Shown in pieces: positions 38,368 to 47,924 of a stretch of 64,000 bases of DNA. Made by a program: the position numbers and the translations under genes. Every line of letters begins with the position of its first letter. Position 1 is the first letter of the stretch. The notes under the pieces were generated by a model. That model was not told the origin of the DNA, did not search any database, and saw only the letters and a program-made list of their open reading frames with translations. This stretch comes from Chryseobacterium sp. 36-9 (GTDB taxonomy: Bacteria > Bacteroidota > Bacteroidia > Flavobacteriales > Weeksellaceae), in assembly GCA_001898785.1 (NCBI GenBank), contig MKVE01000023.1, positions 24,753 to 88,752 of the forward strand, read 5' to 3'.

Positions 38368-39918
38368 GTGAAAAAGAAAATTTACACAGTTTTAGGTTTG
38401 GCAATAGTCCTGAACCTTAATGCACAAATCTTCAGTGCAGGTTTCGAAAATAATAATGGAACGCCAATATCCCAATTCAAAACAATCAATGCAGATGGAT
38501 TAACAGTTCCGGAATGGGGACAGGTTCAGGATTTTAATGAAAAAGCTTGGATTCAGTTTTACGATGGTTACGATAATAAAATTGCTTTCAGTACGTCATA
38601 CTACGATCCAGAAGGTCAGGCGAATGATTGGTTAATTACACCAGCAATTACAATTCCAAGCACCGGAACGCCAACAGTTTACTGGAAAGGAAAATCCTAC
38701 GACTTTGAATATACAGACTCCTACGCTGTAAAAGTTTCTGTGACCAATGACAGCCCGGAATTTTTCACAACATTGACTCAGATTGATGCCGAGCAACCGT
38801 TTGACTACGCATCGCATACTTTAGACTTATCCGATTATAAAGGAAAAACCATTTATTTAGCTTTCGTAAATAACACAAACAGTGGAACTTATCTGGCTCT
38901 TGATGACTTGTATATCAGCCAATCTGCAGATTGTGTGATGCCTTCATTAGACGGGTTTTCGGTTTCGAATCTTAAACCAAATTCAGTAACAATCAACTGG
39001 TCAGCAACTAGCGGAATTACTAATTATGATACAGGATTGACAACTTTTGACACTTCTGTTTCTTCCAAAGGAATCACTTCTACAACAACGAAGAGTTTTG
39101 ATAATTTGCAAGCCGGAAAAAGATATCAGTTCTTTTTGAAAAATGCGGATTGCGGTTCTGGCTGGGCCGGACCAAAATCCGTTTGGACGCCGACAGAGCT
39201 TCCCTATTCCTATGATTTCGAAAAAACACTTGAGAACTACGGCGAATATGATTCTGACGGTTGGGCTTCTACAACGTGGTTAATGGGAGAAAATCAGTCT
39301 GTTGCTCAAAACGGAAGCGGTTACGCCTATAACAATACAAGTACTTCTGCTGCCGGGAAAAATGACTGGTTATTCTCCTATCCGATCTATCTTAAAAACG
39401 GCGAAACGGTTACAGTAAAATATCACACAGCGATAGGAAGTGAAGAAGCAGAACCTGCTACTTTGAAAGTTGCTGTAGCAAATGCACCGGACAAAAGTAA
39501 TATCAGTGTAAATCTAAGCACTCAAACTGTTTCTCAACAAACTTATACAGAGCATACAGTTAGTTACACTGCGACAGCTGACCAGGTTTATTATATTGGA
39601 TTCGGGAATACGACGCCTAAAGTTACGACAACAACAGCTTTGAGATTGGATAATATTAGTTTTACAAAAAATAATTTGGCTGTAATTGATATCAATAAAA
39701 CCAACATTAAAACTTATCCAAATCCAGTTATAGATTTCTTGAATATCAAAACTGATGATATTATTAAATCTGTAGAAATCTACGCAATCGACGGGAAATT
39801 AATCAAAAAGATCGAAGGAAATAATAGTAAAGTCGATTTCAGAAATTATCAAAAAGGTTCTTATTTAGTAAAAATTGAAACTAACAAATCAATTACAAGT
39901 CAGAAGGTTATAAAATAA
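38368..39918 (+). CDS. Secreted protein with choice-of-anchor-J, FN3 and T9SS sorting domains
   Basis: A 516-residue surface or secreted protein. Start is GTG at 38368 followed by a signal peptide (KKKIYTVLGLAIVLNLNAQ). It contains two MAM-like/choice-of-anchor-J jelly-roll domains (about 20-185, with NDWLITPAITIP and TIYLAFVNNTNSGTYLALDDLYI; and about 280-445, with GKNDWLFSYPIYL and LRLDNISF) separated by a fibronectin type III-like domain (about 195-275, LKPNSVTINWSATSG). The C-terminus is a type A sorting domain (KTYPNPVIDFLNIKT ... YQKGSYLVKIETN). Adhesion or a protease accessory role is common in such proteins; no catalytic domain is seen. The trp leader begins 81 nt downstream. Confidence 0.85.
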   Translation: MKKKIYTVLGLAIVLNLNAQIFSAGFENNNGTPISQFKTINADGLTVPEWGQVQDFNEKAWIQFYDGYDNKIAFSTSYYDPEGQANDWLITPAITIPSTGTPTVYWKGKSYDFEYTDSYAVKVSVTNDSPEFFTTLTQIDAEQPFDYASHTLDLSDYKGKTIYLAFVNNTNSGTYLALDDLYISQSADCVMPSLDGFSVSNLKPNSVTINWSATSGITNYDTGLTTFDTSVSSKGITSTTTKSFDNLQAGKRYQFFLKNADCGSGWAGPKSVWTPTELPYSYDFEKTLENYGEYDSDGWASTTWLMGENQSVAQNGSGYAYNNTSTSAAGKNDWLFSYPIYLKNGETVTVKYHTAIGSEEAEPATLKVAVANAPDKSNISVNLSTQTVSQQTYTEHTVSYTATADQVYYIGFGNTTPKVTTTTALRLDNISFTKNNLAVIDINKTNIKTYPNPVIDFLNIKTDDIIKSVEIYAIDGKLIKKIEGNNSKVDFRNYQKGSYLVKIETNKSITSQKVIK

Positions 39919-39963: not shown

Positions 39964-39994
39964 ATTGCAGAATTAAAAATCATTTCTAAATTTG
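39964..39994 (+). promoter_or_regulatory. trp operon promoter
   Basis: ATTG (39964-39967), a 19-nt spacer and an exact -7 box TAAATTTG (39987-39994) match the Bacteroidota promoter consensus in both elements and spacing. The leader-peptide ATG is only 6 nt beyond the -7 box, so the transcript would be almost leaderless. Confidence 0.8.
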
Positions 39995-39999
39995 CTCTT

Positions 40000-40077
40000 A
40001 TGAAAATAACGAACAACAAAAACTGGTGGTGGCTTTCAAACTCTTTGTCGGGTCTGAAAGGATTATCGGTGTTCTAA
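40000..40077 (+). CDS. trpL: trp operon leader peptide
   Basis: A 25-codon open frame from ATG 40000 to TAA 40075-40077, reading MKITNNKNWWWLSNSLSGLK and five more residues. Three consecutive TGG codons lie at 40024-40032. It is placed between a consensus promoter and a rho-independent terminator that precedes trpE. This is the standard arrangement of a Trp-sensing transcription attenuator: when charged tRNA-Trp is scarce the ribosome stalls at the TGG run. A segment just after the TGG codons (40044-40055) can pair with the left arm of the terminator (40109-40121), which gives an antiterminator. The pairing is read by eye. Confidence 0.88.
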   Translation: MKITNNKNWWWLSNSLSGLKGLSVF

Positions 40078-40107
40078 ATTGTGAACTAACTATAACTCAA
40101 TCATAAT

Positions 40108-40140
40108 AAGACTTTGACAAATTTTGTTGAAGTCTTTTTT
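40108..40140 (+). terminator. trp attenuator terminator
   Basis: A 13-bp stem with two G-U pairs (40108-40120 / 40124-40136, 3-nt loop) followed by a T-run. Its left arm is complementary to leader positions 40044-40049 (TTTGTC with GACAAA 40116-40121) and 40052-40055 (GTCT with AGAC 40109-40112), so terminator and antiterminator are mutually exclusive. A 6-bp hairpin (40033-40038 with 40055-40060) could occupy the antiterminator strand. Confidence 0.85.
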
Positions 40141-40148
40141 ATTTTAAG

Positions 40149-40214
40149 GCTTCGAGAGCCTCAGCCTGACAGAATTTAGTTTTAATAATTGTCATCCTGA
40201 GCGGAGTCGAAGGA
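40149..40214. repeat. GTCATCCTGAG repeat (copy 1)
   Basis: Arms ggcttcgag-x-cctcag-x-ctgaca and tgtcatcctgagcggagtcgaagg are imperfect inverted copies. This TGTCATCCTGAGCGGAGTCG type of element is a well-known interspersed repeat in Bacteroidota genomes. It lies between the trp attenuator and the trpE start codon. A related copy lies at 44144-44234. Confidence 0.75.
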
Positions 40215-40235
40215 TTTTAGAAAAAATTAAATCGT

Positions 40236-41654
40236 ATGAAATTAAATAACATAATCAATATAAAAACCTCTGTTAAATCCCGTTTAGCAGACCTTTATAC
40301 GCCAATTGGGATTTACCTTCGTCTTCGCGACCAGTTTCGGGATACGATTCTTTTGGAAAGTGCCGGAAATCAGAATTCTGAAAATTCGTTTTCTTTTATC
40401 TGTGTCAACGCCATTGCCGGAATTGAAATCAGAAATTATAACGAAGCTGAATTGAAATTTCCTCTGGAAAATCCTACAAAAATCAATCTGAAAAATGAAA
40501 AATTGTCTGACTTGATGCAGGAATTTTCCAACTGTTTCCAATGTGAAAAACCAAATCACGAGATTGGAAAACAAGCACAGGGATTTTTCGGATATACAAG
40601 TTATGATGCGATTCCGTTTTTTGAGAATATCAAGTTCAAGGAACAATCGGAGGAAAATAAAATCCCTTTGATGCGTTATCGACTTTATCAATATGTGATT
40701 GCAATTAATCATCATAATGACGAAATGTTCCTGATTGAAAATAAAATCAATGGATTGAAATCAGAACTTTCAACATTGGAAAACATCATCAATCAAAAAA
40801 ACGCACCGGTCTTCCCTTTCGAAATTACTTCAGAAGAAACTTCGAATTTGAAAGATGAAGAATTTTTGGAATCAGTTGAATTTGCCAAAAAACATTGTTT
40901 CCGTGGTGATGTTTTTCAGTTAGTTTTAAGCAGAAGATTTGAGCAGAAATTTCAAGGCGATGAGTTCAATGTTTATCGTGCTTTGCGAAATATCAATCCG
41001 TCTCCTTATTTATTTTTCTTCGATTATGGCGATTATAAATTAATGGGCTCTAGTCCGGAAAGTCAGTTGATTATCAAAAATAGAAAAGCTATAATTCATC
41101 CAATTGCAGGCACTTTCAAACGAACCGGAAACATCGAAAAAGATTTGGAATCTGCAGAAGAACTTAAAAAAGACCCAAAAGAAAATGCGGAACACACAAT
41201 GTTGGTAGATTTGGCAAGAAACGATTTGAGCATTCACGGAAAAAATACAACGGTTTCCAAACTTAAGGAAATTCATTTTTTCTCTCACGTGATTCATATG
41301 GTTTCCGAAGTTGTAACCGATGTTAAAGAAGACCAGAATCCGTACGAAATGATTGCCACCACATTTCCACAAGGCACTTTGAGTGGCGCTCCAAAATACC
41401 GTGCGATGCAGTTAATCGACGAACACGAGAAAACTTCCAGGAGTTATTATGCAGGTTGTATCGGCTTTGTCGGCTTCGACGGCAGTTGTAATCAGGCGAT
41501 TATGATTCGAACTTTCCTGAGTAAAAACAACACATTGTTTTACCAAGCTGGCGCTGGAATTACAGCAAAATCAGTTGCAGAAAGCGAACTTCAGGAGGTC
41601 AATAACAAATTAGGCGCTTTGAAAAAAGCCATTTTAAAAGCAGAGAAATTATGA
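40236..41654 (+). CDS. trpE: Anthranilate synthase component I
   Basis: A 472-residue chorismate-utilising enzyme that, with TrpG, makes anthranilate from chorismate and glutamine. Motifs: YLFFFDYGDYKLMGSSPESQLIIKN (about 250-275), HPIAGTFKRTGNIEKD, HTMLVDLARNDLS (about 321-333), FPQGTLSGAPKYRAMQLIDEHE, and YYAGCIGFVGFDGSCNQAIMIRTF. The N-terminal regulatory part begins at about 15-60; the ESAGNQNSENSFSF stretch (about 40-53) fits the Trp-feedback site region (LLES). Its stop overlaps the trpG start by four bases (ATGA). It is the first structural gene after the attenuator. Confidence 0.96.
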   Translation: MKLNNIINIKTSVKSRLADLYTPIGIYLRLRDQFRDTILLESAGNQNSENSFSFICVNAIAGIEIRNYNEAELKFPLENPTKINLKNEKLSDLMQEFSNCFQCEKPNHEIGKQAQGFFGYTSYDAIPFFENIKFKEQSEENKIPLMRYRLYQYVIAINHHNDEMFLIENKINGLKSELSTLENIINQKNAPVFPFEITSEETSNLKDEEFLESVEFAKKHCFRGDVFQLVLSRRFEQKFQGDEFNVYRALRNINPSPYLFFFDYGDYKLMGSSPESQLIIKNRKAIIHPIAGTFKRTGNIEKDLESAEELKKDPKENAEHTMLVDLARNDLSIHGKNTTVSKLKEIHFFSHVIHMVSEVVTDVKEDQNPYEMIATTFPQGTLSGAPKYRAMQLIDEHEKTSRSYYAGCIGFVGFDGSCNQAIMIRTFLSKNNTLFYQAGAGITAKSVAESELQEVNNKLGALKKAILKAEKL

Positions 41655-42217
41655 AAATTTTAGTCTTCGATAATTACGACAGTTTCACATATAATTTGGT
41701 TCAGATTATTGAGCAGATTGTTGACGAAAAAGTAGATGTTTACAGAAATGACCAAATTCAGTTGAAAGAAATTGAAAAATACGACAAAATTATTCTTTCG
41801 CCCGGTCCAGGAATTCCAGAAGAAGCTGGAATACTGTTAGAAGTGATTAAAAAATATGCGCGGACAAAATCGATTTTCGGGGTCTGTCTTGGTCAGCAAG
41901 CGATTGCCGAAGCTTTTGGAGGAAGTTTGATTAATCTTTCAGAAATCTATCACGGTGTTGCAACCGAAGCCACTCAAACCAGTGAACATCATATTTTCAA
42001 TAATTTACCTAAAACTTTGGAGGTTGGGCGTTACCATTCCTGGGCTGTAAATCCTGATGATTTCCCCGAAGAATTAGAAATCACAAGCATCGACAAAAAC
42101 GGAATGATTATGAGTCTGAAACATAAAACTTACGATGTTCACGCTGTACAATATCACCCAGAAAGTATTCTGACACCAGATGGAAAACAGATTTTGGAAA
42201 ACTTTCTTAATAATTAA
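41651..42217 (+). CDS. trpG: Anthranilate synthase component II (glutamine amidotransferase)
   Basis: A 188-residue class I glutamine amidotransferase supplying ammonia to TrpE. The triad is Cys79 in FGVCLGQQAIAEAFGG, His169 and Glu171 in VQYHPESILT; the oxyanion loop is SPGPGIPEEAG (50-60). There is no fusion to trpD. It overlaps trpE by 4 nt and is followed by trpD after 6 nt. It might also serve para-aminobenzoate synthesis, as in some bacteria with one such subunit. Confidence 0.95.
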   Translation: MKILVFDNYDSFTYNLVQIIEQIVDEKVDVYRNDQIQLKEIEKYDKIILSPGPGIPEEAGILLEVIKKYARTKSIFGVCLGQQAIAEAFGGSLINLSEIYHGVATEATQTSEHHIFNNLPKTLEVGRYHSWAVNPDDFPEELEITSIDKNGMIMSLKHKTYDVHAVQYHPESILTPDGKQILENFLNN

Positions 42218-42223
42218 ACACAA

Positions 42224-43210
42224 ATGAAGCAAATCCTACAATATCTTTTTAATCACCAGACTTTGACGAAAGCTGAAGCCAAAGCTATTTTGATTGAAAT
42301 TTCACAAAATAAATTTAACGAAAGCGAAGTCATTTCGTTCATCACCGTTTTTCTGATGCGAACGATTACTTTGGAAGAACTCGAAGGTTTTCGTGAAGCG
42401 TTGTTGCAATTGGCAAAACCTGTCGATTTGGGAACCAAAGACTTGGTTGACATCGTTGGAACCGGTGGAGACGGAAAAAACACCTTCAATATTTCGACTT
42501 TAGCGAGTTTTATTGTTGCAGGGACAGGACAAAAAGTGGCTAAACAAGGTAATTACGGTGCATCTTCTATTTCCGGCTCGTCTAATGTTTTGGAAGAATT
42601 AGGTTACAAATTCAAGGACAATTCCGAAGATCTGAAAGCCGATTTGGAAAAAGGAAACATCTGTTTTCTGCACGCACCGCTGTTTCATCCTGCTTTGAAG
42701 TCTGTTGCGCCGTTCAGAAAACAGCTTGGACTGAAAACTTTTTTCAATCTTCTGGGACCGTTGGTCAATCCTTCACGCCCCGATTTCACAATGATTGGCG
42801 TGGCGAATCTCGAAATTGCTAGAGTTTATCAATACCTTTTACAAAAACAAAAGAGCGAGTTTATGCTCGTTCACGCTTTGGATGGCTATGACGAAATTTC
42901 CTTAACTGGCGATACAAAAATATTCAACAAAAACGGAGAAAAAATCTATTCTGCCGAAGATTTGAAATTCAAAAATATCGCTCCAGAAAGTATTTTCGGA
43001 GGTAATACAAAAGAAGAAGCTTCCCAAATTTTCCTCCAAATTCTCGAAGGAAATGGAACCGAAGAACAAAACTCGGTTGTTCTTGCCAATGCTTCAATAG
43101 CTCTGCAAAACACAGGAAAATATGGTAACTATGATGATTGTCTGGCATTAGCAAAAGATAGTCTGGAAAGCGGAAAAGCGTTACAAAGTTTGAAAAGTAT
43201 TATTAAATAA
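42224..43210 (+). CDS. trpD: Anthranilate phosphoribosyltransferase
   Basis: A 328-residue enzyme joining anthranilate to PRPP. The diagnostic GTGGDGKNTFNIST (PRPP loop, about 79-92), KQGNYGASSISGSSNVLEELG, FLHAPLFHPALKSVAPFRKQLGLKTFFNLLGPLVNPSRP (about 144-182) and HALDGYDEISLTGDT are all present, and the length is typical. An inverted repeat fills the 141-bp gap to trpC. Confidence 0.96.
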   Translation: MKQILQYLFNHQTLTKAEAKAILIEISQNKFNESEVISFITVFLMRTITLEELEGFREALLQLAKPVDLGTKDLVDIVGTGGDGKNTFNISTLASFIVAGTGQKVAKQGNYGASSISGSSNVLEELGYKFKDNSEDLKADLEKGNICFLHAPLFHPALKSVAPFRKQLGLKTFFNLLGPLVNPSRPDFTMIGVANLEIARVYQYLLQKQKSEFMLVHALDGYDEISLTGDTKIFNKNGEKIYSAEDLKFKNIAPESIFGGNTKEEASQIFLQILEGNGTEEQNSVVLANASIALQNTGKYGNYDDCLALAKDSLESGKALQSLKSIIK

Positions 43211-43351: not shown

Positions 43352-44131
43352 ATGAGCATCCTAGATAAAATCATAGAAAGAAAAAAACAGGAAGTTGCAG
43401 AAGCAAAATCCAAAATCTCTGTTGAACAACTAAAAGATTCGGAATTTTTTGGAAAGCCAACTTTTTCGTTAAAAGAAACCATCAAAACAAAATCCGGAAT
43501 CATCTCGGAATTCAAAAGACAATCGCCAAGCAAAGGTATAATCAATGATAAAGTTTCACCTTTGGAAGTCGTTTCTCAATATGAAAATTTCGGAGCAAGT
43601 GCAGTTTCTATTTTAACGGACAAAGATTTTTTTGGAGGAAATTTTGACGATATTTTGAGTGTAAGAAATCATATTAATATTCCGGTTCTGAGAAAAGATT
43701 TTATGATTGATGAATATCAGTTTTACGAAGCCAAATCAATCGGAGCTGACATTATTTTGTTGATTGCAGCTTGTCTTTCACCAACTCAGGTTTCCGAATT
43801 TACAGAATTGGCGCATTCTTTAAATCTCGAAGTTTTGTTGGAAATCCATTCCGAAGAAGAACTAAAACATATCAACAAAAATGTTGATCTAGTTGGCATC
43901 AATAACAGAAATTTGAAAGATTTCAAAGTCGATTTGCAACATTCCGTAGATTTGAAAAATAAGCTTCCAAACGATATTTTGTCAGTCGCAGAAAGCGGAA
44001 TTTACAACGAAGAAGATTTCAGATTCCTTAAAGAAAAAGGGTTCGACGGATTTTTGATGGGCGAGTATTTTATGAAGAATAAAAATCCGGGAGAGAAATT
44101 CGAAGAATTTGTTTCTAATGTAATAATTTAA
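43352..44131 (+). CDS. trpC: Indole-3-glycerol phosphate synthase
   Basis: A 259-residue TIM-barrel enzyme closing the indole ring. Family motifs are ISEFKRQSPSKGIIND (about 51-66, with the catalytic Glu/Lys pair), ASAVSILTDKDFFGG, VLRKDFMIDEYQFYEAKSIGADIILLIAA, VGINNRNLKDFKVDL and VAESGIYNEEDFRFLKEKGFDGFLMGEYFM. It is stand-alone, not fused to trpF. A repeat lies between it and trpF. Confidence 0.96.
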   Translation: MSILDKIIERKKQEVAEAKSKISVEQLKDSEFFGKPTFSLKETIKTKSGIISEFKRQSPSKGIINDKVSPLEVVSQYENFGASAVSILTDKDFFGGNFDDILSVRNHINIPVLRKDFMIDEYQFYEAKSIGADIILLIAACLSPTQVSEFTELAHSLNLEVLLEIHSEEELKHINKNVDLVGINNRNLKDFKVDLQHSVDLKNKLPNDILSVAESGIYNEEDFRFLKEKGFDGFLMGEYFMKNKNPGEKFEEFVSNVII

Positions 44132-44143
44132 AATAACAACTGT

Positions 44144-44234
44144 GTCATTCTGAAAGCAGAGAAACAAAGTGAAGAAACCTAACGAAGTGGTTAGGCGAAG
44201 CCAATCTCTGAGATTCCTCGTTCCTCAGAATGAC
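44144..44234. repeat. GTCATTCTGA repeat (copy 2) in the trpC-trpF gap
   Basis: A 91-bp element bounded by perfect 10-bp inverted ends GTCATTCTGA (44144-44153) and TCAGAATGAC (44225-44234). The middle holds aagaaacctaacgaag and ggttaggcgaagcc, also partly palindromic (cctaac / ggttagg). A longer in-frame extension of trpF would read through it, which I take as accidental. Confidence 0.8.
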
Positions 44235-44252
44235 AACTTGAAAATTGATATT

Positions 44253-44912
44253 ATGATTAAACCAACAATAAAAGTCTGTGGATTAACAAAACTCAATCAG
44301 ATTCAGGAATTAGTGGATTTGAAAATTGACTTTTTGGGATTTATTTTTTATGAAAAATCGCCAAGATATGTTTTGAATCATTTAAGTTTGGAGCAAATCT
44401 CAGAAATCAATCATCCAGGAAAGGTTGGCGTTTTCGTGAATGAAGACTTGGAAAAAATTATTAAAATTTCGGAACAAGCAAACTTGAATTTCATACAGCT
44501 TCACGGTCATGAATCCGAAAATTTCATTTCAGAATTAAAACAAAAATTGAATCCAAAAATTGGAATTATCAAAGTCATTAGAATAGGAAATCAAACATCA
44601 GAAGAATTACAAAAAACCATCAAACAGCAATCAACAACAATCAACTATCTTCTATTCGACACAGATTCCCAAGCTTTTGGCGGAACAGGAAAAACCTTCG
44701 ATTGGAACATTTTAAATGACATCGAAATTCCAATTCCTTATTTTTTAAGTGGCGGAATCTCATTAGAAAACTTCAATCAACTGACAACTATCAACCATCA
44801 ACCAACTGCAGTTGATATCAATTCAAAATTTGAAATCGAAGCTGGAAATAAAGATTTAGAAAAAGTAAAAGAATTTTTATCATTAATAAAAAATGAAGCA
44901 TCATCAATATAA
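44253..44912 (+). CDS. trpF: Phosphoribosylanthranilate isomerase
   Basis: A 219-residue TIM-barrel isomerase. The start MIKPTIKVCGLTK has the catalytic Cys9; FLGFIFYEKSPRYV, VGVFVNEDLEKI, IQLHGHES, LLFDTDSQAFGGTGKTFDW (with the catalytic Asp) and FLSGGISLEN follow. The ATG at 44253 is used: an upstream in-frame ATG at 44169 would add 28 residues encoded by the repeat element. The 3' end overlaps the OsmC-like gene by 20 nt in another frame. Confidence 0.95.
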   Translation: MIKPTIKVCGLTKLNQIQELVDLKIDFLGFIFYEKSPRYVLNHLSLEQISEINHPGKVGVFVNEDLEKIIKISEQANLNFIQLHGHESENFISELKQKLNPKIGIIKVIRIGNQTSEELQKTIKQQSTTINYLLFDTDSQAFGGTGKTFDWNILNDIEIPIPYFLSGGISLENFNQLTTINHQPTAVDINSKFEIEAGNKDLEKVKEFLSLIKNEASSI

Positions 44913-45360
44913 AAGCAAAATAGTCTGGACAGGAAACACCGGCGAATCCACGAAAAACTATCGTTCTTATCAAAGGAATTATACAATTTCTGTCGATGGA
45001 AAAGCTGACATTTTAGGCTCATCTGACCCAACATTTTTAGGAAATCCAGGACTTCATAATCCTGAAGATTTGTTGTTAGCTTCGGTTTCCTCGTGTCATC
45101 TCTTATGGTATCTTCATCTTTGTTCTGTGAACAAAATTCTGGTTTTGGAATATGAAGATTTTGCAGAAGGAACAATGATGGAAAATGAAAACGGAAGTGG
45201 AAAATTCAGTGAAATTATTTTGAAACCAAAAATTGTTGTTGCTGAAAAAGAAATGATAGAAAAAGCGTTTGAACTTCATCAGAAAGCGAATGAATATTGT
45301 TTCATTGCCAATTCTTTGAACTTTGAAGTGAAGCATCAATCAGAGATAACAACAAAATAA
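44893..45360 (+). CDS. OsmC/Ohr-family protein inside the trp operon
   Basis: A 155-residue OsmC-fold protein. It keeps the two redox cysteines: one in VSSCHLLWYLHLC (about 67-79) and one in KANEYCFIANSLNFEV near the C-terminus, plus the glycine turn GNPGLHNPEDLLLASVSS. Family members reduce organic hydroperoxides using dithiols. It starts within the trpF 3' end (20-nt overlap) and so is translated from the trp transcript. A link to tryptophan is not evident; oxidative protection is a guess. Confidence 0.88.
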   Translation: MKHHQYKSKIVWTGNTGESTKNYRSYQRNYTISVDGKADILGSSDPTFLGNPGLHNPEDLLLASVSSCHLLWYLHLCSVNKILVLEYEDFAEGTMMENENGSGKFSEIILKPKIVVAEKEMIEKAFELHQKANEYCFIANSLNFEVKHQSEITTK

Positions 45361-45368
45361 ATTGAGAA

Positions 45369-45902
45369 ATGCAATATTCTATTAAACGCTCAAAAGACTT
45401 ATCAGATAACGACATCGAGCTAATTTTAAAATCCTGGGAAATAGAAGATTGGCTTGATTTAGATTCTTCGAGTTTCAAAATGAAATTTGAAAATTCTGAA
45501 TTTCATTTTTTAAAAAACGATGACAGAATTGTTTCGCTGGCAAGAATCAATTTTGATTTCAAACTAGAAATACAAGAGAATTTACACAGTTTTTCTGAAC
45601 TTGTCGGATTGGTTTCTGTAGAAAAAACAAAAGGATACGGCAGTTTTTTGATTAATAAAATAGTGACCAATTTAAAAGAGAGAGAAATTGACACTATAGG
45701 ATTTTGTAAATTCGAATTAAGACCATTTTATGAAAGAAATGACATCCAAATCCTTTATGGAAAGGGAATTTTCATAACAGAATTTAATAATAATAAATGG
45801 ATAGATTCCGATGACGATGATATTTTAATCATCAATACTTCCGAAGAAAACATCAATATATTACGAAGTCTGAATGAACAGAATAAAGCAATTTTAATAT
45901 AA
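45369..45902 (+). CDS. GNAT-like acetyltransferase inside the trp operon
   Basis: A 177-residue protein. The middle, LVGLVSVEKTKGYGSFLINKIVTNLKEREIDTIGFCKFELRPFYERNDIQIL, has the GNAT pattern: a strand, the acetyl-CoA loop (x-x-KGYGSFL), then helix and FYERN-type strand. The N-terminal part is degenerate and the substrate is unknown. It sits 8 nt after the OsmC-like gene and 24 nt before trpB, so it is in the operon. I rate the family as likely rather than certain. Confidence 0.75.
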   Translation: MQYSIKRSKDLSDNDIELILKSWEIEDWLDLDSSSFKMKFENSEFHFLKNDDRIVSLARINFDFKLEIQENLHSFSELVGLVSVEKTKGYGSFLINKIVTNLKEREIDTIGFCKFELRPFYERNDIQILYGKGIFITEFNNNKWIDSDDDDILIINTSEENINILRSLNEQNKAILI

Positions 45903-45926: not shown

Positions 45927-47105
45927 ATGAACTTTCAAAACCCAGATAAAAACGGTTATTACGGCGATTTTGGCGGAGCTTTCATCCCCGAAATGCTTTA
46001 CCCAAACGTTGCCGAATTACAGGAAAAATATATCCAAATCATAGAATCGGAAGAGTTCCAAGATGAATTTCAGGATTTGCTGAAGAACTATGTTGGCCGC
46101 GCTACTCCACTCTATTTCGCAAAAAATCTGAGCGAAAAACACCAGACTCAAATCTATCTAAAAAGAGAAGATCTGAATCACACAGGAGCGCACAAAATCA
46201 ACAACGCGTTGGGGCAAGCTTTACTCGCTAAAAAATTAGGAAAACACAGGATTATCGCAGAAACCGGAGCCGGACAACACGGTGTTGCAACCGCTACAGC
46301 TTGTGCTTTACTCGGTTTGGAATGCATTGTTTACATGGGCGAAATCGATATCCAAAGACAAGCGCCGAACGTTGCCCGAATGAAAATGCTTGGCGCAACA
46401 GTAATTCCTGCAACTTCGGGCTCCAAAACTTTGAAAGATGCTGTGAATGAAGCTCTAAGAGACTGGATTAATAATCCTTCCACTACACATTACATTATCG
46501 GAAGTGTAGTTGGCCCACATCCGTTTCCTGATTTGGTAGCGAGATTTCAAAGTATCATTTCAAAAGAAATCAAAGAGCAACTGAACGAAAAAATCGGTAG
46601 AGAAAATCCGGATTATGTCATTGCCTGCGTTGGAGGCGGGAGTAATGCAGCAGGAACTTTCTATCATTTCGTGAACGAGGAAAATGTGAAAATCATTGCA
46701 GCGGAAGCTGGTGGTTTAGGCGTTGATTCAGGGAAATCAGCTGCGACTACTTTTCTTGGAACATTAGGAATTTTGCACGGAAGTCAAAGCCTAGTGATGC
46801 AAACCGAGGACGGACAGGTCATTGAACCACACTCGATTTCTGCAGGTTTGGATTATCCGGGAATTGGGCCGATGCACGCTAACCTTTTTAATCAAAAAAG
46901 AGCAGAATTTTTCAGCATTAATGATGATGAAGCGTTGAAATCGGCTTTTGAACTGACAAGAATTGAAGGTATAATTCCAGCTTTGGAAAGTGCGCACGCT
47001 TTGGCTGTTTTGGACAAAAAGAAATTTGAAAAGGATGATGTAGTCGTGATTTGTCTTTCCGGTCGTGGTGATAAGGATATGGAAACGTATTTGAAACATC
47101 TTTAA
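45927..47105 (+). CDS. trpB: Tryptophan synthase beta chain
   Basis: A 392-residue PLP enzyme joining indole and serine. The start [21 protein letters not shown], the PLP lysine Lys90 in [38 protein letters not shown] (with Glu that activates the indole), [15 protein letters not shown] (phosphate loop) and [16 protein letters not shown] are all typical of the classic TrpB1. It is followed by trpA after a repeat-filled gap of 87 bp, and it pairs with TrpA in the synthase complex. Confidence 0.97.
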
Positions 47106-47192: not shown

Positions 47193-47924
47193 ATGAAAAA
47201 ACTAAACATATACTTTACAGCAGGCGTTCCAAAGTTGGAAGACACCGGAAAAATCGCTAAACTGATTCAGAAATCGGGAGCAGATATGATGGAAATCGGG
47301 ATTCCTTATTCTGATCCTGTTGCGGATGGACCTGTGATTCAGGAGGCGCATTCTCTGGCTTTGAAAAACGGAATGTCTATCAAAAAACTATTCGAGCAAT
47401 TAGCCGAAATCAAAGATTCGGTTACAATTCCTAAAATATTAATGGGTTATCTGAATCCGGTTCTTCAGTTTGGGTTTGACAACTTTTGTCAGAAATGTGC
47501 AGAAGTTGGTGTTTCAGGATTAATCATCCCGGATTTGCCACCCATTGAATTTGAAAATAAATATGGCGAAATCCTCAAAAAACACAATTTGAATTTCACT
47601 TTCCTGGTAACGCCCGAAACTTCGGAAGAACGCATCAAATATTTGGATTCTTTGAGTTCGGGATTTTTATATGCAGTCAGTTCTTCTTCCACAACAGGAA
47701 ACGACAATGCTGTTCTGAAGAATGAAAATTATCTGGACAGATTAGCTTCTTTAGATTTGATAAATCCAGTTTTCATCGGTTTTGGAATCAAAAATCAATC
47801 TGATTTTGAGAATGTAACAGAAAAAGCACAAGGCGGAATTATCGGAACAGCTTTTGTGAAAATTCTATTGGAAAATCAAGATTGGGAAGAGAAAGGAAAA
47901 GAATTCATCAAAGGAATCAAGTAG
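47193..47924 (+). CDS. trpA: Tryptophan synthase alpha chain
   Basis: A 243-residue TIM-barrel enzyme cleaving indole-3-glycerol phosphate. The catalytic Glu34 and Asp45 lie in DMMEIGIPYSDPVADGPVIQ; ILMGYLNPVLQFG, GVSGLIIPDLPP, NFTFLVTPETSEERI, GFLYAVSSSSTTGND and VFIGFGIKNQSDF follow. It is the last gene of the trp operon, followed by a perfect palindromic repeat and then a strong terminator. Confidence 0.96.
   Translation: MKKLNIYFTAGVPKLEDTGKIAKLIQKSGADMMEIGIPYSDPVADGPVIQEAHSLALKNGMSIKKLFEQLAEIKDSVTIPKILMGYLNPVLQFGFDNFCQKCAEVGVSGLIIPDLPPIEFENKYGEILKKHNLNFTFLVTPETSEERIKYLDSLSSGFLYAVSSSSTTGNDNAVLKNENYLDRLASLDLINPVFIGFGIKNQSDFENVTEKAQGGIIGTAFVKILLENQDWEEKGKEFIKGIK

Follow-up and report, generated by a model that had tools for sequence, protein, structure and literature searches.

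The trp operon of Chryseobacterium sp. 36-9 is very probably controlled by a cis-acting leader-peptide transcription attenuator. The window, i.e. the whole stretch of 64,000 nucleotides that was analysed, carries on its plus strand a 25-codon ORF for a trp leader peptide (MKITNNKNWWWLSNSLSGLKGLSVF; 40000..40077, stop codon TAA at 40075-40077) with three consecutive Trp codons (TGG x3; 40024..40032), the predicted stall site of the ribosome. Sequence and comparison with relatives show, ahead of trpE, a conserved ORF with its Trp codons and conserved helices that exclude one another and carry compensatory changes; from these we infer the transcription start, the stalling, the termination and the response to tryptophan. 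RNA polymerase would begin either at the AUG itself or at the base ahead of it, and a ribosome would load on trpL at the 5′ end of the RNA. When charged tRNA-Trp is scarce, the ribosome would wait at UGG UGG UGG, covering the 5′ side of a 1:2 hairpin and leaving region 2 (40044-40055) free just past its leading edge. Region 2 would pair with region 3 (40109-40121) during transcription, the terminator would not be formed in time, and trpE and the genes behind it would be transcribed. With plentiful tRNA-Trp the ribosome would cross region 2, reach the stop codon and leave; the 1:2 hairpin would fold, region 3 would pair with region 4, and transcription would end at the T-run near 40140.

The locus fits this reading in that a short ORF with consecutive codons for the operon's product amino acid (WWW) is followed, according to the fold, by an intrinsic terminator between the leader ORF and the first gene. 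Among ATG frames of fewer than 60 residues, the leader is the sole case with WWW in the window on either strand. It lies between a gene for a T9SS-type secreted protein (38368-39918) and the genes trpE, trpG, trpD, trpC, trpF, an OsmC/peroxiredoxin-like gene, an unnamed gene, trpB and trpA, in this order. The first structural gene, trpE (40236..41654, plus strand, as all genes given here), had trpE_most as its best NCBIfam model, and trpF (44253..44912; start chosen by us, the ORF list beginning it at 44169) matched phosphoribosylanthranilate isomerase models; in both, the gene's own family scored best, yet remained under the equivalog cut-off (401.6 against 517.7 bits for trpE, 165.6 against 215 for trpF). 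The other genes exceeded theirs: trpG (41651..42217; trpG_papA, 185.6 bits, cut-off 121), trpD (42224..43210; TIGR01245, 298.9 bits, cut-off 199), trpC (43352..44131; NF001377, 297.7 bits, cut-off 260), trpB (45927..47105; TIGR00263, 593.3 bits, cut-off 392) and trpA (47193..47924; TIGR00262, 216.1 bits, cut-off 102). The stretch 44893-45902 between trpF and trpB places the OsmC/peroxiredoxin-like gene (39.9 bits, under the NCBIfam cut-off) and the unnamed gene, which had no NCBIfam match at E 1e-5, inside the trp operon. The TrpE loci closest to that of the window (96-98% identical) were from seven named Epilithonimonas and from two MAGs titled Chryseobacterium; the genome is Epilithonimonas-like.

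A TrpE search of genome contigs yielded 53 loci, of which L001-L047 were Weeksellaceae-type (by title for the most part Epilithonimonas, Chryseobacterium, Kaistella, Cloacibacterium, Planobacterium and similar genera) and L048-L053 came from other taxa. A short ATG-started WWW frame was found ahead of trpE in 47 of the 53, namely in all Weeksellaceae-type loci; it was absent ahead of trpE in L048-L053, L050 covering only 341 nt upstream. Together with the window, the 47 loci gave an alignment of 48 leaders in which the three Trp codons are invariant. In view of this conservation a chance ORF was rejected.

An earlier note, made only from the letters of the window and a list of its open reading frames, had described the 25-residue frame with its three Trp codons just past a promoter of the form ATTG-N19-box, and both were confirmed by direct reading. 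The candidate -33 element ATTG (39964..39967) is followed after a 19-nt spacer by the -7 box TAAATTTG (consensus TAnnTTTG; 39987..39994), which leaves five bases to the ATG. A TTG at the ATTG site was also present in the listed Epilithonimonas-type loci and was not evident in Kaistella and Chryseobacterium. The box ended 4-5 nt ahead of the leader ATG in 42 of the 48 loci, a spacing found upstream of only 3 of the 1928 ATGs of the window. Because of this spacing, the trp leader mRNA is predicted to be leaderless. The box sits at -12 to -5 of mapped transcription starts in F. psychrophilum (PMC9723704), and on this basis the 5′ UTR is predicted to be 0-1 nt long, with the start at 39999..40000; translation thus probably begins at the very first base of the RNA. 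Leaderless mRNAs are given as 5.5% in F. psychrophilum (PMC9723704), and about 3.7% of 5′ UTRs are shorter than 10 nt in B. thetaiotaomicron (PMC7366714). It is this leaderless spacing that makes the attenuator less usual. Exceptions were L001, L008 and L009, where an insert of about 50 nt follows the box-plus-ATG, L016 and L026, whose Trp codons have no box within 80 nt, and L044, with a GTG 6 nt past the box. In the first three, the insert, with its own ATG, separates the promoter box from the leader, and in L008 the TGA of the upstream mini-frame overlaps the leader ATG.

Sequence and fold likewise confirmed the described terminator, 13 bp with two G-U pairs, past the leader stop. It is formed by region 3 (left arm, 40108..40120) and region 4 (right arm, 40124-40136), and ends in the T-run 40135-40140. 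Bases 40109-40121 double as the 3′ strand of the antiterminator, and the claimed complementarity between region 2 (40044..40055) and the left arm of the terminator amounts to 12 pairs with one bulged T. The small hairpin 40033-40038/40055-40060, which the earlier note had given as a third hairpin that may compete, proved real; it does not stand apart, being instead the core of a longer, classical 1:2 (anti-antiterminator) hairpin that the note had not described. In the minimum-energy fold this hairpin spans 40011..40074, with stems 40011-40014/40071-40074, 40022-40030/40062-40070, 40033-40038/40055-40060 and 40040-40043/40050-40053, the second of which pairs the Trp codons themselves. Folding of 40000-40140 gave z = -3.57, and shorter pieces of the leader folded less extremely (z -1.93 and -1.74). 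Between terminator and trpE there is a further imperfect inverted repeat (stem-loop; CATCCTGAGCGGAGTCGAAGGA and its partner, 40150..40213, plus strand; z -2.13 for 40145-40235), a 22-mer of which occurs a single time in the window. The distance from T-run to trpE varies from 17 to 188 nt across the loci, and this repeat probably lies outside the switch.

Both exclusive helices were found in all 48 loci, the terminator with -11.3 to -21.1 kcal/mol and the 2:3 duplex with -8.7 to -16.5 kcal/mol; in shuffles of single loci the duplex was in some cases not extreme, with up to 36 of 200 in L045. In the alignment, 97.7% of the cells of the 3:4 terminator were paired, with double changes at four pairs. 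For the 2:3 antiterminator the values were 88.3% (27-57% in slid controls) and five pairs; 6 of 500 shuffles matched its count of double changes and none of the 500 its percentage or score. The column pair 50-147 of the antiterminator is U-A in 18 leaders and C-G in 14, and its partner in the terminator, 147-155, is A-U in 20 and G-C in 19; the two switch in step, therefore all three strands covary at this position. The alignment across relatives proposed in the earlier note thus gave what it had sought: a conserved TGG run in all 47 Weeksellaceae-type loci, and compensatory changes in antiterminator and terminator, at one position in three strands. Without a hint, RNAalifold drew the inner 1:2 hairpin and the terminator, and two inner 1:2 stems were partly contained in its consensus, with compensatory changes. 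Exchange of arms between seven groups of leaders gave a mixed result, since the Kaistella, Chryseobacterium, L015 and L044 groups fitted at least one foreign arm equally well or better. The other three (Epilithonimonas, Cloacibacterium and the group of L026, L027, L028 and L030) were best with their own arm. Region 2 of Cloacibacterium reached -16.5 kcal/mol with its own left arm and -6.7 to -10.5 kcal/mol with the arms of the other six groups; Cloacibacterium swaps in either direction with these six gave -6.5 to -11.7 kcal/mol. The outer 1:2 stem may join the first codons of the leader with the last ones. In Chryseobacterium, AAC/GTT is swapped for AGC/GCT in L034, L036, L038 and L040, with a half-change in L039. 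Shuffles of single sequences were mostly not significant for this stem, so that it rests on the exchange of these codons and on single stronger cases such as L015.

A covariance model built from the 48 aligned leaders matched 165 of 197 genomes of the family and 24 of 33 genera at E <= 0.01; genomes whose loci had trained the model were included in the search, so the matches within the genus are partly by construction, and weak matches were checked only where the sequence was fetched. Of 40 stretches fetched at matches of this model or of RF01692, 38 contained a leader whose Trp codons stand two or three in a row, the other two being L102 and L118. An automated rule found leader and terminator in 92 of 96 sources; it failed for L102, L104, L111 and L118, although L104 and L111 do carry leaders. 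These data also bear on the idea that the terminator serves the upstream gene, or is a constitutive terminator of the leader, with WWW incidental. Although the terminator lies about 190 nt past the stop codon of that gene, a -7 box belonging to the leader itself stands at fixed spacing in 42 of 48 loci, the WWW of the leader is invariant, its switchable helices covary and its model recurs in most genomes of the family (165 of 197). We regard this explanation as very improbable, and a terminator of the upstream gene was rejected on account of the leader's own promoter box and the covariation.

An attenuating leader peptide is also favoured over a leader that binds a ligand or a tRNA. A T-box or riboswitch would likewise be a structured leader ahead of a biosynthetic operon; however, all Rfam matches in the window stayed under their cut-offs, the Trp codons follow an ATG in the same reading frame, and the sub-threshold match that fits this ATG and these codons is itself a leader-peptide family, RF01692. 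This leaves such a leader with next to no probability, and T-box and riboswitch were rejected as no Rfam family in the window reached its cut-off. SpF11, PyrR, STnc180 and other weak Rfam matches were all under their cut-offs, some with better E-values than RF01692, values that come from short searches.

The probability of the antiterminator, P(2:3), was calculated from equilibrium folding with an assumed ribosome footprint. With the left arm of the terminator transcribed, P(2:3) in the window was 0.02 for the unoccupied leader, because the 1:2 hairpin holds region 2, and 0.86 once a ribosome occupied any one of the Trp codons. Folding in the alternative states, which the earlier note had named as a check, thus predicts the shift that its attenuator needs. 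The corresponding values for trpL of E. coli were 0.00 unoccupied and 0.71 stalled (0.63-0.67 with a two-sided footprint). In the stalled state all 48 loci exceeded 0.5. The shift of the exclusive helices by a stalled ribosome was weaker in 18 of the 48, including 8 of the 10 Kaistella-type loci, where P(2:3) was above 0.5 even without a ribosome. Once the right arm was transcribed, the terminator won at equilibrium in 46-47 of the 48 loci, the window among them, despite a stalled ribosome, and likewise in E. coli; therefore antitermination must be kinetic. Taken together, Trp-codon conservation, covariation and predicted folding support the central claim of the earlier note, that a ribosome-stalling attenuator controls the trp operon.

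The models differ from those of E. coli when the ribosome has reached the stop codon, which in the window lies 42 nt past the Trp codons. A ribosome standing at the stop left P(2:3) at 0.81 in the window as against 0.00 in E. coli, so that the E. coli rule, by which a ribosome at the stop masks region 2, would not hold here. In a walk along the codons of the window leader, P(2:3) was 0.00-0.27 with the A site on codons 5-14 past the first Trp codon; it was 0.00 from TTG to AAA and returned to 0.81-0.86 at the stop and the two codons before it. Only 8 of the 48 loci had P(2:3) below 0.5 at the stop, and the difference between the stalled and the at-stop state exceeded 0.3 in only 10. Six loci with a stop 21-27 nt past the Trp codons had mean at-stop values of 0.00-0.05, while the other 42 loci had means of 0.99 (stop at +39) and 0.72 (stop at +42). 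Under the model, termination in the window must rely on the 1:2 hairpin after release of the ribosome, or on the ribosome's passage. For Kaistella-type leaders (+39), where 8 of 10 favour the 2:3 duplex unoccupied, only timing would remain.

The class of attenuator to which the leader belongs has been described, and it is not a new kind of switch (RF01692; PMC2864571, PMC9723704). Bacteroid-trp (RF01692; Rfam label, tryptophan peptide leader RNA) was listed among the cis-regulatory motifs of Bacteroidetes in 2010; the main text of PMC2864571 names it once, in Table 1. In F. psychrophilum the trp operon is preceded by Bacteroid-trp, which was compared with E. coli (PMC6414381), and strong hints of attenuation by leader peptides upstream of amino-acid operons were reported (PMC9723704). 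The weight that the earlier note had placed on an attenuator as notable in this phylum therefore has to be reduced. No description of the leader in Weeksellaceae was found in titles and opening abstracts among the matches listed; a 2010 survey by Lopatovskaya and others and a 2008 trp review could contain one. Three traits of the leader are variants without a description among the literature matches listed: its leaderless spacing, its pairing with the left arm and its late stop.

Like members of RF01692, the window leader lies upstream of trp genes in Bacteroidota and has a UGG-rich ORF in register, with AUG and UGG UGG aligned over the whole model. Its match scored 25.4 bits, under the gathering cut-off of 49, and by Rfam's own rule it is therefore not a member. 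This cut-off was reached by none of 23 genomes of the genus and by 36 of 246 genomes of the order (with stricter filters, which lose weak matches); two weak matches in the genus sit at the leader (G018 and contig C9 of G008). In three genomes of the window's family (G079, G161 and G198), RF01692 exceeded its cut-off and the new model matched at the same places, which ties the two together. The leader is predicted to work like an RF01692 member, and intermediates link both.

Differences concern stop, promoter spacing and pairing. RF01692-found leaders of family f3, which was taken as Flavobacteriaceae because RF01692 is reported there, have their stop 15-21 nt past the Trp codons, compared with 42 nt in the window. 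The distance from box to ATG is 16-20 nt in 12 of 20 f3 leaders, compared with 5 nt in the window; in the remaining 8 it is 4-7 nt, so that short spacing is not confined to the window's family. The pairing of region 2 with the left arm of the terminator was compared with its pairing with loop plus right arm. The left arm was preferred in 47 of the 48 Weeksellaceae-type leaders (window and L001-L047; 40 of 41 distinct ones; exception L026), whereas loop plus right arm was preferred in 19 of the 20 f3 leaders (exception L124). Loop plus right arm was also preferred in L103, L105 and L113 of the window's own family, and in L129 and L134 (family f2) the first leader slightly preferred the left arm. 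These preferences show two distinct antiterminator pairings among the trp attenuators of a single order. L129 (genome G023), L134 (G039) and L128 (G059), from other families of the order, contain tandem Trp-codon leaders, each with its own ORF and terminator; RF01692 matches twice in G023.

With trpL of E. coli the window leader shares tandem Trp codons, the 1:2, 2:3 and 3:4 helices and the same predicted response to a stalled ribosome. The E. coli leader, however, has only two such codons, and its stop follows them by 9 nt, so that a ribosome halted there blocks the 2:3 duplex, whereas the window leader has three, a stop 42 nt after them and leaderless spacing. An attenuator RNA that starts at the leader AUG is known from trpL/rnTrpL of S. 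meliloti, a Proteobacterium in which only trpE(G) of three trp operons is attenuated (PMC7298713). There, RNA and peptide (rnTrpL/peTrpL) are reported to act in trans, and the terminated RNA of about 140 nt or the peptide might also, or mainly, do so here. The predicted leaderless start resembles that of rnTrpL (PMC7298713), and in 13 loci of Chryseobacterium type most codon changes at the end of the peptide are synonymous, which keeps its residues (codon columns 12-16: Leu in 12, Leu in 12, Ser in 13, Cys in 11 and Cys in 13 of the 13). The same codons, however, can pair with the 5′ end of the leader (AAC-GTT, AGC-GCT), which could explain the conservation of the peptide end without a role in trans. 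We consider a trans-acting product unlikely and retain attenuation in cis as the reading of the locus.

Leader peptides were also observed ahead of other amino-acid operons. His leader peptides (e.g. MSIQLMHHHHHSHVQAGR) with terminator-like hairpins precede hisG in all four loci of the genus (L072-L074 and L076), and His leaders were found ahead of hisG in all three loci from other families (L075, L077 and L078). L076 is from the window's own genome, on the minus strand. Branched-chain leader peptides (e.g. MNSTIIILVILVIIGFRW) with a terminator-like hairpin were present in all three loci of the genus with ilvD (L080, L081 and L082); the gene directly behind the leader and ahead of ilvD is presumably ilvE. 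An ilvD search gave no match in the window's genome. Ahead of homoserine dehydrogenase no leader of Thr type was conspicuous, but the loci extend upstream of the domain for just some 1500 nt, too short a stretch to argue for absence. The his and ilv leaders suggest that the leader-peptide mechanism is general here. By eye count, 18-20 nt separate their box from the ATG.

It is conceivable, at somewhat less than an even chance, that the trp attenuator of Weeksellaceae and of part of another family of the order is leaderless, that its RNA starts at the AUG and that initiation dependent on the 5′ end sets the timing of the ribosome relative to the polymerase. Given the late stop that most Weeksellaceae leaders have, termination in Trp-replete cells would require that the ribosome moves on or is released and that the 1:2 hairpin refolds, instead of a ribosome parked over region 2. 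As the his and ilv leaders keep ordinary 5′ UTRs, this arrangement would within the genus be specific to trp. Comparison of the loci argues clearly for attenuation of the classical type in Weeksellaceae, a case that the Rfam cut-off misses in the genus. They raise the question of how ribosome and RNA polymerase are synchronised without a 5′ UTR, a Shine-Dalgarno sequence or a stop codon over region 2, and the predicted leaderless start, in a group without Shine-Dalgarno initiation, makes this question testable.
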